Source: Tropicibacter sp. Alg240-R139
GTDB lineage: Bacteria; Pseudomonadota; Alphaproteobacteria; Rhodobacterales; Rhodobacteraceae
Assembly: GCF_900537075.1 (NCBI RefSeq)
Contig: NZ_UNRA01000002.1
Location: 793,249 to 857,248 of the forward strand
DNA length: 64,000 nucleotides
Reading direction: 5' to 3'
In this document: positions 2,305-61,962 of the stretch, one piece after another
Position numbering within the stretch: position 1 is the stretch's first letter
How the letters are laid out: each line of letters starts with the position of its first letter
Translations under genes and position numbers: made by a program
The notes under the pieces: generated by a model
Seen by the model: only the letters and a program-made list of their open reading frames with translations
What the model was told of the DNA's origin: nothing
The model's database searches: none

Positions 2305-2437
2305 GGGAGCTCCCGCACCCGAGCGATCCCGACTTTGTCGGCACCGCTAGCGGCTTTGGGCCGGGCACCGGGCAAAGCCCGGTGCCCGGCCCAACAGGAG
2401 GAGATGTTTCGCTAGAAACATTGACGACGGGCGGGAG
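2305..2437 (+). repeat. Structured intergenic element, copy A (long form)
   Basis: One of nine related copies in the window. Order: 5' block GCTCCCGCACCCGAGCG, a short GAC..GTC hairpin, a CGCTAGCGGCTTT segment, a very GC-rich hairpin ending in CCCAAC, the linker AGGAGGA, a hairpin TGTTTC-GCTA-GAAACA, and the tail TGACGACGGGCGGGAG. The tail can pair with the 5' block to close the whole element. It sits between the purA operon terminator and the convergent acidic-protein gene. Chance ORFs across it are artefacts of its GC-rich palindromes. Confidence 0.85.
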
Positions 2438-2603
2438 GGTCTCGGGTGAGAGTGCCGTGTTTCGCACCAAGCCACTTTCAGCGATCAACGGCTTTGAGGC
2501 GCGGATCAAGTGGGCGTGTAGGTGGCCCAGCAGGTTTTGGCCAACAGACCGTCGCGGACAGTAAGCGCCTTGCAATGAAGTTGGTGTGGAAACTGGCGAT
2601 GGC
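2438..2603. other. Intergenic remainder with no recognisable feature
   Basis: About 165 bases between element copy A and the terminator of the acidic-protein gene. A short plus-strand frame crosses it, but it has no convincing ribosome binding site, family resemblance or codon bias. I see no gene or RNA here. Confidence 0.5.
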
Positions 2604-2653
2604 TAAAAAACACAAAAAAGGCCGCTAAATTCGGCGGCCTCCTTTGTGTTTTT
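2604..2653 (-). terminator. Intrinsic terminator of the acidic-protein gene
   Basis: Inner stem AGGCCGC / GCGGCCT extended by an outer AAACACAAA / TTTGTGTTT stem. On the minus strand it is followed by a T-rich run. It lies 12 bases past the stop at 2665 and, having A and T runs on both sides, may work in both directions. Confidence 0.85.
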
Positions 2654-2664
2654 AGGTGTGCAAT

Positions 2665-4947
2665 TTACCCAGCTGCACGTTTGCCTGGGTGGAACCCAAT
2701 GTCTCCCGAGGCAACAAAGCGACCCCCGCCAGCTTTTTCGATCTTGCCATCACGGAGCAGCTGGCCAAACGACCGCAGACCGTCTTCGCGGTTAAAGCTC
2801 TGGTTATCCAGCTGACGCACTTTGTTCATCAACTGCGGGCGCGAGAATTGTTCGCGACCTTCGACAAACGACATGTAGGCTGCGGCTGCTTCCAGCAGAT
2901 CGGGCAACGACACGGCCCCTTGTTCAGCGGCGTAGTCGGCAAACCCGTTGCCAGTTTCATTGTTGGGATCATCTGCGACAACCGAGGCAACACGGCGTGG
3001 GCGCACCGGGCCACGGTTCTGGGTCTCTGTCGGTACGTCGATGCGCTGCTCGGCCACCAGCTTGAGTGGCGCCGGGCGGTCGCCGCCGGCACGCGGACGC
3101 GGGCTTGAAGCTTTGGCTGTGGGTCGGCGGGGGCGCACCACGCTTGCCAGGTCTTCGCGATAATCATCGTCGCTGGTGTGGGTGCCAACAGTGCCACCTG
3201 CCGACCGCTCGGCATGCGCTGCCGCAACGGCTGCACGCAGATGCGTATAAGCTTCGCGTGAAGAGGATGTGTCGGGATCATCCAGCTTTTCGTCAGCGGT
3301 TGCCATCAGGCGAGACAGGTCGTCTTCGTCAGCTTCCAGCTTGGGGGCTTCCTCAGGTGTTTCGCGTTCTGATTCGGCGTCCTGTTCTTTGGCAACGTCG
3401 TCGACATTCCCAACATGAACCTCGGCCCCATCTTCGGCTTCGGGTTCCATCTGCGGCAGTTCGTCGTCGTCGTCATCGGAATGCGCGTTTAGTTCGGCTT
3501 CAACGGCGGCCAGTTCCCGCATCAGGTCGGCCTCGTCCTCGGGCAGCAGCGAGCTGCCGCCAACCGCGTCTTCCTGCGATGCGTCATTCTGGGCGTTGTC
3601 TTCGTTGGTTTCTTCATCCGCGGCCTGCAGCTCCCCAGCGGCAATCGCCGCCTCAAGATCACTGCGCTTGACTTTCAGGACACGGGCTTTGATCGGCGCC
3701 GATTTTTCGGGAGTTTCGCCAGAGTTCAGGATGTTGTCCAACTCGTCATCGGCGTCGTCAGCACCGCTGTCGCCCAAGTCCGAGAACAGAGCGTCCTCTT
3801 GCGGCATATCAACCGTGTCTGCGTCGTCTTCGACGTCCAAGGTGTCCAGGATTGCAGTGACATCATCTGCTTCATCCCCAGCCTCATCCTGATCCTCAAC
3901 GTCTTCGTCCGCTTGCAGGGCTGCGGTCAGGCCAACTGCCGCAGCGGTAACCACATCATCGGCATGCTCGTCTTCGGCATAAGTCTCGGTTTGAGCTGCC
4001 TTTTCGTTGCGCGAAACAACGGCACGGATGCGCTGCAGCTTAGCGGCGATGCTGTCGGCGGCCGGAACGGTGTCGTCGTTTTCGACCGGCTCGGCTTCAA
4101 CGATAGGTGCTTCGTCCTTGGGGTCAGCCACACGGGCGGCAATCGCTGCAAGGGCGGCGTCTTCGTCGGTGTCTGTGGCGTCGGGTTCGACGTCCGCAGC
4201 AACTTCGGGAGCTTCGTCCAAATCCTCGGCGGTACTTTCGTCCGCCGCGTCTTCGATTTCGACTATCGGCGCGGCTTCTATCGTCTCGACATGTTCAGCC
4301 TCGTCTATCGGTGTTTCTTCGGAAACGACCTCGGTTGCCTCGGGCTCAACCTCTGGCGGCTGGCTTTCCGCAACTGGGTCTTCGTCGATCTGTTCTTCGA
4401 TCTCCTCGACTTCCGCAACGACTTGCTCAGCCTCTTCCTCGGCAGGTGCCTCTTCGACAACGATTGCGGCGGCGGGGGCTGCGATCGAAGTTGCTGCCGC
4501 GATCTCCTCGGTTGCCTCCACTGAAGGTGCTTCAACAGGGCTTTCGTCAGTTACGGTCGGGGCGTTCTCTTGTTCAGCTTCTGTGGCGTGGGCCTCTTCA
4601 ACTGGTGCAGCATCAGGCTCAGCAGCAGGGGCCGGGGCTGGATCAGGTTCTGGCTGGGCCTCGACCACGTCGGCGGCAACCGGCGCAACAGCTTCGGCAG
4701 CGCGCAGCACAATACCTTTAGAATCAGTGCGGGCTTCGACTTGCCGCGAAATCTCCCGCTGTGCGATCCGTGCCAGCATGTCAGCGTCGGGTTGGGGTGG
4801 TTCTGCCCCGAAATAGCGGTCGTCCGATGCCAAATCCCTAAAGTACTCGGCAATGGCTTTCATGGTGTCAAAAGAGTCTTCGAACCCTTCCAACGTGCAG
4901 GAAAATGTCCCGTATGAGACGGTCAATACCTTGTTGTTCTGTACCAT
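2665..4947 (-). CDS. Large acidic low-complexity protein of unknown function
   Basis: A 760-residue protein with three regions. Residues 1 to about 60 form a compact conserved-looking domain (VLTVSYGTFSCTLEGF, then F-AIAEYFRDLA-DDRYFGAEPPQ). Residues of about 80-640 are almost entirely Ala/Glu/Asp/Val, very acidic and probably disordered. Residues of about 655-760 are globular, with a helix-rich, winged-helix-like stretch (FSRPQLMNKVRQLDN...RSFGQLLRDGKIEKAGGGRF). There is no signal peptide or membrane segment. It is monocistronic with its own terminator and divergent from thiamine pyrophosphokinase. I know similar proteins in roseobacters but no established function. The spacer suggests a tether between an N-terminal binding module and a C-terminal one (inference). 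Confidence 0.8.
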   Translation of the reverse strand: MVQNNKVLTVSYGTFSCTLEGFEDSFDTMKAIAEYFRDLASDDRYFGAEPPQPDADMLARIAQREISRQVEARTDSKGIVLRAAEAVAPVAADVVEAQPEPDPAPAPAAEPDAAPVEEAHATEAEQENAPTVTDESPVEAPSVEATEEIAAATSIAAPAAAIVVEEAPAEEEAEQVVAEVEEIEEQIDEDPVAESQPPEVEPEATEVVSEETPIDEAEHVETIEAAPIVEIEDAADESTAEDLDEAPEVAADVEPDATDTDEDAALAAIAARVADPKDEAPIVEAEPVENDDTVPAADSIAAKLQRIRAVVSRNEKAAQTETYAEDEHADDVVTAAAVGLTAALQADEDVEDQDEAGDEADDVTAILDTLDVEDDADTVDMPQEDALFSDLGDSGADDADDELDNILNSGETPEKSAPIKARVLKVKRSDLEAAIAAGELQAADEETNEDNAQNDASQEDAVGGSSLLPEDEADLMRELAAVEAELNAHSDDDDDELPQMEPEAEDGAEVHVGNVDDVAKEQDAESERETPEEAPKLEADEDDLSRLMATADEKLDDPDTSSSREAYTHLRAAVAAAHAERSAGGTVGTHTSDDDYREDLASVVRPRRPTAKASSPRPRAGGDRPAPLKLVAEQRIDVPTETQNRGPVRPRRVASVVADDPNNETGNGFADYAAEQGAVSLPDLLEAAAAYMSFVEGREQFSRPQLMNKVRQLDNQSFNREDGLRSFGQLLRDGKIEKAGGGRFVASGDIGFHPGKRAAG

Positions 4948-60926: not shown

Positions 60927-60951
60927 CAATTGGTCAGAAATTGAGAAAATC

Positions 60952-61407
60952 ATGCTAGACGATGTCGATCGTCGCATCTTGCGGCATTATCAGGCAGATC
61001 CCAGCCTGAGCACCGCGGATTTGGCTGAACGGTGCCGCATCACGTCTGGCGTGTGTTGGCGGCGGATCGAAAAAATGCAGGCAGCGGGCGTCATTCAGGG
61101 TCAACAAGCGGTTATCGACTGGGCGGCCCTGGGCTATGCGGTTGAAGTCTCTCTTCGTGTGACGCTGGACAAGACGCAAGCGCGGGCCTTTGACGAGTTC
61201 ACCGCAGAAGCGCGCCTTGTGGCTGAAGTGATCGAGATCCAAACCTTTCTGGGTCGTGTTGATGTGCGCCTGTCAGTGATTGCGCGCGATATGGCGCATT
61301 ACCAGCAGCTGTATCGCGACCGCATCCTGACGTTGCCACATATCGCGGACATCGAGGCATTGATGCACATCGCGCGTGTCAAAAGCGCCGAAGGGTTGCC
61401 GCTGTGA
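60952..61407 (+). CDS. Lrp/AsnC family transcriptional regulator (first of pair)
   Basis: A 151-residue regulator with N-terminal HTH ([27 protein letters not shown] near 2-28) and a C-terminal RAM/effector domain ([21 protein letters not shown]). It is divergent from ilvC and its stop overlaps the second Lrp gene's GTG start by four bases. It probably senses an amino acid, perhaps a branched-chain one. Confidence 0.9.
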
Positions 61408-61862
61408 TCGAGTTGGATGACATGGATCGCAATATTTTGCGTGCTTTGTTGCAGGATGCGGGCCTGAGCGCCGGGGCTTTGGGGCGGCGGTTTGACCTGT
61501 CACAGCCTGCAACATGGCGACGGATCAAGCGGCTGGAGCAGGGTGGCGTGATCAAAGGGCGTCGCCTGCGGTTGAACGCCGAGGCACTTGGCTTTGGGGT
61601 TACAGTCTTTTTGGGGGTCAAATTGGCTCGCAAAGGGCAGGTGAGCCTGGAAGATTTTGAGCGCGCCGTCAGTGCAATCCCTGAGGTGCAGACTGTCGAG
61701 CATGTCTTGGGTCTGTACGACTATCGTCTTCGCGTCGTTGCCCGCGATTTACCGGACTTTGAGCGGGTATTGCGGCGACGGATCATGACCCTGCCCGGTG
61801 CAGGAGATGTCGAGGCCAATGTGCTCTTGAGTGAAGAGAGGTTGCCCGGCCCAATCGGGTGA
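61404..61862 (+). CDS. Lrp/AsnC family transcriptional regulator (second of pair)
   Basis: A 152-residue protein with the same organisation: HTH LDDMDRNILRALLQDAGLSAGALG, then an effector domain with VQTVEHVLGLYDYRLRVVARD. It starts at GTG 61404 inside the first gene's stop (GTGA) and should be translated at a fixed ratio with it. The two differ in most positions, so they are old paralogues and may form hetero-oligomers. Element copy I follows its stop. Confidence 0.9.
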   Translation: MIELDDMDRNILRALLQDAGLSAGALGRRFDLSQPATWRRIKRLEQGGVIKGRRLRLNAEALGFGVTVFLGVKLARKGQVSLEDFERAVSAIPEVQTVEHVLGLYDYRLRVVARDLPDFERVLRRRIMTLPGAGDVEANVLLSEERLPGPIG

Positions 61863-61880
61863 CGTGAGATATTTGCGCAA

Positions 61881-61962
61881 CCGCAGGCGCGGGCAAAGCC
61901 CGTGGCTGCCCGGCCCAACGGGAGGAGGAGCCCCGGAAGGGGCTTCGACGACGGGCGGGAGC
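61881..61962 (+). repeat. Structured intergenic element, copy I
   Basis: Short first hairpin CGGGC-AAA-GCCCG followed by CCCGGCCCAACGGGAGGAGG, the hairpin AGCCCC-GGAA-GGGGCT, and the tail TCGACGACGGGCGGGAGC. It lies 18 bases after the second Lrp gene and 24 before the convergent hutC end. Confidence 0.85.

Follow-up and report, generated by a model that had tools for sequence, protein, structure and literature searches.

An apparently unnamed family of two-armed intergenic repeats at gene 3' ends in Tropicibacter sp. Alg240-R139 and related bacteria

The element in the window

The 64,000-nucleotide stretch of Tropicibacter sp. Alg240-R139 analysed here (the window) contains nine copies, A to I, of a structured intergenic element, which appears to represent a new, apparently unnamed family of the REP/BIME-like repeat kind with an unusual two-armed design. 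A preliminary description had reported nine copies with one layout, all intergenic and none protein-coding. This was borne out: the copies were recovered within families D1-D6 in a repeat search of the window, reading of the sequence located each of them with the common layout, all nine were matched by covariance model R1 with 50.0-99.5 bits, and predicted genes cover none of the 131 copies counted in the whole genome. Since R1 was built from 33 sequences that include eight of the nine window copies (all but H), its scores on them indicate consistency and are not independent support. Such support is provided by the exact core pattern GGCCCAACNNGAGGMGA, which has 40 matches across the genome against none for the reversed-pattern control.

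In its complete form the element has two different structured arms, X and Y, which flank a long palindrome (P3) in inverted orientation. Read from the left, X (CTCCCGCRCCCGAGCGATCCCGACTNNGTCGGCACCGCTAGCGGCTTTGGGC; 45 genome matches with up to three mismatches, none in the control) is followed by P3 and then by the right arm Y, composed of GCCCAACNNGAGGAG, a stem-loop and CGACGANNGGCGGGAG. Complete copies measure about 141 bp and are bounded by CTCCCGC on the left and GCGGGAG on the right, as part of an imperfect terminal repeat that reads GGRRNG-CTCCCGC in 55 left flanks and GCGGGAG-CNCYYCG in 119 right flanks. Copies A, B and C of the window have this complete form. For these three the unit as first described was too small, although its layout was correct, as the second, inverted arm and the imperfect terminal repeat of 13-14 bp are also part of the element.

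The two-armed copies A (2304-2444, plus strand; Y arm 2389-2444) and B (34176-34316, plus strand) lie in convergent gaps and contain exact matches to the X arm; they score 97.1 and 99.5 bits with R1, and 65.8 and 76.5 bits with R2, a model of the Y arm alone. Within copy B, the X arm occupies 34182-34227 on the minus strand, on which X arms fold according to the pair statistics of 81 X arms. It is followed by P3 (34228-34266; TTGGGCC ... GGCCCAA in the sequence and in the fold of this copy), which has no strand, and by the Y arm (34261-34316, plus strand) with its G.A/A.G steps and the outer end GCGGGAG. Copy C (58060-58200, minus strand; Y arm 58060-58115; R1 92.9, R2 68.4 bits), also two-armed, is found in a tandem gap. 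Copies G (23105-23194, plus strand; Y arm 23139-23194; R1 81.9, R2 63.0 bits), H (28641-28736, minus strand; Y arm 28641-28693; R1 50.0, R2 53.2 bits) and I (61871-61968, plus strand, left limit approximate; Y arm 61913-61968; R1 75.1, R2 71.0 bits) consist of P3 and a Y arm in convergent gaps, and copy D (39798-39887, minus strand; Y arm 39798-39853; R1 88.5, R2 70.4 bits) has the same composition in a tandem gap. In copies E (17934-18055, plus strand; Y arm 18000-18055; R1 68.8, R2 65.0 bits) and F (43837-43947, plus strand; Y arm 43892-43947; convergent gap; R1 70.7, R2 62.2 bits), P3 and Y are preceded by a Z-type left part, known from repeat D6, and the left limits are approximate. Copy B lies just 3' of a gene for a Cys/Met metabolism pyridoxal phosphate (PLP) enzyme (32959-34149, PF01053), which itself follows a SAM_alpha riboswitch (32810-32887).

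Among the 131 genome copies, regular expressions classified the left part as X in 70, as Z type in 15 and as other or shortened in 46. Long forms carry an insert inside P3. Five X arms without Y are broken off in or near P3, one of them retaining a Y-like outer end. At one locus (C1:895598-895683 of the own genome, L225) the reverse complement of X follows the palindrome in place of Y, and the arms are thus exchangeable. Profiles of the flanks revealed no conserved sequence beyond the terminal repeat, and such profiles are blind to site-specific target duplications.

The Y stem is supported by covariation. Among 90 diverse Y arms it reached 0.526 against 0.186 for shuffles, none of 500 shuffles attained this value, and the signal was lost when the partners were slid by 1-3 columns. 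The conserved G.A/A.G step of Y is present with G.A and A.G in 83 of the 90 arms each, and the pair adjoining it is GC in 75, AU in 8 and UA in 3. A second G.A/A.G step covaries with its partner, CA standing opposite in all eight own copies with GAGGCG versus 4 of 78 with GAGGAG. The long forms contain a further hairpin (W) with the combinations GA/GA in 40, GC/GC in 5 and mixed in none of 45 pattern-matched cases. At site E the palindrome differs among congeners by paired changes; template switching can also correct palindromes, and paired changes in P3 therefore carry less weight.

The two arms fold on opposite strands. On the plus strand, Y stems contain 152 G-U versus 15 A-C pairs (165 arms), or 42 versus 13 once the two richest columns are left out. 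On this strand X stems have 6 G-U versus 36 A-C pairs in the stems proper, and 6 versus 96 including the inner loop (81 arms), from which it follows that X folds on the minus strand. The element is consequently an inverted pair: the folding strand of either arm is the one read from the centre outwards, with GCGGGAG-CNCYYCG as the outer end. These strand counts argue against stems that act solely as double-stranded DNA. The core pattern fits 109 of the 131 own copies, and 165 of 291 distinct Y arms, those of the commonest length, entered the pair counts. GCCCAA and GGCGGGAG are fixed by the pattern itself, so their invariance in alignment A4 is due to this selection.

Three other structures were considered. 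A single four-way-junction RNA transcribed from the plus strand across the whole element is ruled out by the X-arm pair counts, as X folds on the minus strand. A longer terminal helix, with covariation specific to each site, was rejected, as pairing between the flanks of 60 copies (10.07) was below the shuffled mean (10.75) and 1857 of 2000 shuffles were at least as high. In a putative third hairpin, GGGCG-GGAG-CGCYY, the 5' side is nearly invariant, so that covariation carries no information on it.

The inverted two-armed layout with terminal repeats, the arm-specific folding strand and the truncated X remnants are all compatible with a selfish, REPIN- or MITE-like repeat (MITE, miniature inverted-repeat transposable element) that has no host function. 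Its arms would fold as single-stranded DNA for a nuclease or a transposase acting in trans, it would survive only where it is harmless, at gene 3' ends, and gene conversion would refresh its copies. We regard this possibility as nearly as likely as the role in transcription discussed below.

Copy number and genomic places

The own genome (G000; 4.66 Mb, 14 contigs) has 145 R1 matches at E <= 0.1, of which 14 overlapped a better match and were removed, leaving 131 copies. R2 gave 131 matches at E <= 0.01, none of them weaker than E 0.006, and 130 at E <= 0.001. The best 138-150 candidates were scored per genome (150 for the R1 and R2 scans of the own genome), and all copy counts are therefore lower bounds. 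The family thus occurs at least once per ~35 kb. Absence of further copies, which would have contradicted the preliminary description, is clearly not the case, but its estimate of one copy every ~7 kb was about fivefold too dense: the window is locally dense, with nine copies versus 1.8 expected (Poisson p 1e-4). Its expectation of hundreds of copies per genome was likewise too high against the 131 counted, a lower bound, yet one at which the R2 scores had already run out to E 0.006.

The copies are unevenly spaced. Stretches free of copies extend over 262 kb of contig C1 (~633-895 kb) and 153 kb of contig C2 (~855-1008 kb), compared with a mean spacing of 35 kb. Contig C5 (281 kb) has a single copy; C5 is possibly a plasmid, in which case the family may prefer the chromosome. 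The copies at C4:132362 and C7:34374 are alike in upstream flank and core and have different downstream flanks, as may arise from a recent duplication, from conversion of one end or from an assembly effect.

The genomic places are strongly biased. Among the 131 copies, 87 are located in convergent gaps, 24 in tandem gaps with both genes on the minus strand ('--'), 17 in tandem gaps with both on the plus strand ('++') and 3 in divergent gaps, so that 128 of 131 are flanked by at least one gene 3' end. Background gaps of 40-700 bp, taken from 400 kb picked for containing no copy, are convergent in 26 and divergent in 40 of 185 cases; compared with these, the copies show a convergent excess (Fisher p 5e-22) and a divergent deficit (p 2e-7). 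Counting those with copies, the window has 29 gaps of at least 100 bp, 8 of them convergent. Scaling of the background suggests that between about one in five and one in four convergent gaps of at least 40 bp hold a copy. In convergent gaps, the outer Y end and the stop codon facing it are a median of 33 bp apart, and terminator-like hairpins are present in 18 of 84 gaps with the element versus 20 of 41 without (p 0.003).

The preference for convergent gaps could also reflect a binding site in double-stranded DNA for gyrase or a nucleoid protein, serving to relieve supercoiling where convergent genes meet, and an invariant core with a terminal repeat is in line with such a site. Orientation is not set by replication, as GC skew shows no bias across the full set (positive for 64 of 131; the 24 '--' copies alone give p 0.008), which also agrees with a double-stranded site. 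However, the strand-asymmetric G-U and A-C counts and the covarying stems indicate a single-stranded fold, and we consider this explanation very unlikely.

A role in stabilising the 3' ends of mRNAs has been proposed for some REP elements. Applied here, transcription would terminate farther downstream, with Rho or otherwise, and the stems would then keep exonucleases away from the upstream mRNA, which would agree with the 3' ends beside 128 of the 131 copies and with the stability of the folded stems. However, tandem gaps show no excess of Y folded in the upstream mRNA (17 '++' versus 24 '--'). One-armed copies in tandem gaps direct their outer end toward a gene 3' end in 15 cases and toward a gene start in 4 (p 0.019; 14 versus 4 without the reversed-X copy), which places a folded Y in the upstream mRNA in 4 versus 15. 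P3 would fold in either strand, which weakens this objection, but overall a stabilising role seems unlikely.

Distribution, retention and relation to known families

As had been proposed, covariance models were used to scan other Rhodobacteraceae, and the element was found there. When at most 138 candidates were scored in each genome, R2 had 130 matches in the own genome and 134, 126 and 135 in three congeners; four other genomes of the family had 32, 23, 10 and 1 matches, and the remaining 33 of the 41 genomes none. A wider scan of the family matched 37 of 248 genomes, 12 of which contained 6-52 matches each when rescored with 150 candidates. A class-wide scan matched 2 of 385 genomes, both from the same family and none from outside it. 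These wide scans were shallow, with 18 (family) and 14 (class) candidates scored, which makes their absences weak. The exact cross-genus core occurs in at least 111 stretches of named genomes; among the matches listed (80 titles) are Falsiruegeria, which NCBI places in Roseobacteraceae, Tropicibacter, Ruegeria, Leisingera, Phaeobacter, Pseudophaeobacter, Tropicimonas, other Rhodobacteraceae and Rhodobacterales bins and one Alphaproteobacteria bin. Four plasmid records matched. Cargo of a phage or virus was rejected, with no match in phage records or, by exact pattern, in virus contigs.

Within the genus the sites are retained. In the three congeners 8, 9 and 9 of the nine window sites are occupied, together 26 of 27 and always in the same orientation, and no extra R1 match was found in the syntenic range; third codon positions in these comparisons are 63-64% identical. 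The single unoccupied site, F in G001, holds the remains of a copy, with a palindrome that is still intact though altered in sequence. When 40 elements from L061-L207, loci taken because they contain the element, were mapped to own-genome regions, an own copy was present at 39, with the same orientation in 36 and the opposite in 3; this comparison is biased, as the own-genome regions had likewise been picked for their copies. Blocks from ten other genera, not all of which cover every site, contained four R2 matches at E <= 0.01: at site F in G202, near window position 51.5 kb in both G202 and G040, and ~2 kb beyond site I in G008. A fifth, in G040, had E 0.05. The ~51.5-kb position is a gap between same-direction genes (~51530-51606) that is empty in the window and occupied in these two other genera. 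Sites thus turn over between genera, but not within the genus in this sample. Insertions of ~15 kb (L310-L311, G001) and ~19 kb (L321-L322, G003) lie near window position 35.4 kb in two congeners.

That 26 of 27 sites are retained, always in one orientation and with none added, makes recent movement less likely and counts against a selfish repeat. The patchy distribution would nevertheless suit such a repeat, as would the sites of A, B and C, where the window has short two-armed forms that resemble one another and the congeners have longer and different ones. The latter suggests that copies were replaced at their sites, as could happen through gene conversion. Purging of copies elsewhere would account for the same placement at gene ends.

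The element shares its genomic behaviour with known repeats. REP, BIME and REPIN sequences are described as GTAG-tagged repeats of 20-40-bp units that are tied to RAYT transposases, prefer convergent and same-direction gaps and contain G-T pairs in their stems (PMC3733652, in the part considered here). The element is likewise palindromic, intergenic and of high copy number (131 copies, none in predicted genes), situated downstream of genes in convergent or same-direction gaps (128 of 131), often arranged as inverted pairs and with G-T pairs in its stems, which places its genomic behaviour in a known kind. The preliminary interpretation was incomplete on this point: the family appears to be unnamed, but by its behaviour it groups with REP/BIME-like repeats instead of forming a class of its own. 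It differs from these in the length of complete copies, about 141 bp or more versus the 20-40-bp units given in that part of PMC3733652, in its two different arms around a long palindrome and in the G.A/A.G steps of its Y stem. Its ends are CTCCCGC and GCGGGAG, and no GTAG-tagged hairpin was recognised on reading the sequence, which did not include a tag scan. A Y1 transposase gene (RAYT/TnpA-REP) is lacking in the genome, in agreement with the preliminary description, which saw no transposase or RAYT gene nearby: PF01797 had no match in the own genome and the control was positive in 5 of 14 known genomes, in a search confined to the Y1 family among transposases. Within that limit, this also counts against a selfish repeat.

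Alphaproteobacterial CGTC repeats, as defined in the same part of PMC3733652, have 8-9-bp stems that start with paired A/T, loops of 4-5 and mostly a CCA tail. The element resembles them in its alphaproteobacterial host, in having no known dedicated transposase and in a CGTC beside the stem on the minus strand of Y, but in the alignment the Y stem has neither starting A/T pairs nor a CCA tail. The main text of PMC3733652 does not mention Rhodobacter, Ruegeria, Silicibacter, Roseobacter or Paracoccus.

The element was also compared with other known systems. As in MITEs, two-armed copies are short and non-coding and have imperfect terminal inverted repeats, but no target duplication was recognised and no parent transposon was found in a search that was not exhaustive. 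GC-rich stems behind genes are shared with intrinsic terminators; a strong T run after the core is not, and ordinary terminator-like hairpins are fewer in convergent gaps that hold the element. The CcsR / CCUCCUCCC RNAs of Rhodobacter were considered for the sake of CTCCTCCC on the minus strand of Y and were rejected, the CcsR1 model reaching 15.6 bits versus a gathering score of 65.3. Integron attC sites have RYYYAAC at one end and the partner motif GTTRRRY at the other; GCCCAAC conforms to RYYYAAC but lies inside the element, whose outer ends are CTCCCGC and GCGGGAG, and attC was rejected as well.

The statement that no named family is known with this layout is supported by the searches made. 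A scan of the whole window with Rfam 15 found only the SAM_alpha riboswitch, outside the copies, and no family at its gathering score on any copy; a permissive Rfam scan of copy B gave 23.1 bits at best, below the gathering score. The open-licence literature on repeats and RNAs of Rhodobacteraceae, Rhodobacterales and Roseobacter contained no description of the element, which may have been described elsewhere, and among the matches listed in a literature search for the string GGCGGGAGC, all were on other subjects by title.

Possible role at gene 3' ends

We prefer, tentatively, to interpret the element as a boundary to transcription from both sides that has been retained at gene 3' ends. Each arm would fold in the RNA once the polymerase has passed the palindrome and before it enters the neighbouring gene from its 3' side, and a two-armed copy between convergent genes would thus act in both directions. 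Such a boundary could be a factor-dependent terminator or a roadblock against antisense read-through, and may often replace ordinary terminators. Initially the family would have been a mobile repeat, multiplying by means that are not visible in this genome. This interpretation is favoured by the convergent placement, the covarying arm-specific folds, the retention among congeners, the smaller number of terminator-like hairpins in convergent gaps and the direction of the one-armed copies.

Several observations weigh against a boundary. An excess of G-U over A-C pairs is also expected of folded single-stranded DNA, and the pair counts are not independent events, as the copies are related. The arm classes and gene calls on which much of this evidence is based come from home-made scripts. 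There is no promoter-like motif upstream of the element (55 left flank profiles) and no strong T run within 40 bases after the core (119 copies), where only a mild T excess occurs at +11 (45 of 119) and +12 (51 of 119). The difference in hairpins is weaker in convergent gaps of at least 100 bp (18 of 82 versus 9 of 21, p 0.09) and reversed in tandem gaps (hairpins in 13 of 36 occupied versus 43 of 244 unoccupied gaps, p 0.014), and two-armed copies in tandem gaps have no preferred direction (13 versus 9). The distribution is patchy, covering 8 of 41 genomes and 5 of 38 genera in a set that includes other families, and of sites F, C and I only F was found occupied in the other-genus blocks, in one genome. 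The terminator evidence is thus mixed. Taken together, the hairpin deficit in convergent gaps, the hairpin trend in tandem gaps and the directions of one- and two-armed copies weakly favour a boundary against transcription that enters genes from behind.

A more far-reaching proposal, which we consider doubtful, is that the X and Y arms constitute a new class of RNA structure, with a Y stem built around two G.A/A.G steps, that serves genome-wide as one-way gates against the entry of polymerase through gene 3' ends. Paired X and Y arms would then be two-way insulators in about one in five to one in four of those convergent gaps that have room for them.

REP-like repeats are usually given one of two readings, debris of transposons or stabilisers of RNA, which are hard to tell apart. 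In this family, the lack of a Y1 gene, the orthologous retention at 63-64% third-position identity and the arm-specific strands make the choice between a host function and a selfish remnant directly testable, and such a test is feasible in cultured marine bacteria. If the arms act as boundaries, they would form an intergenic insulator system of a kind that we have not found described in the open-licence literature.

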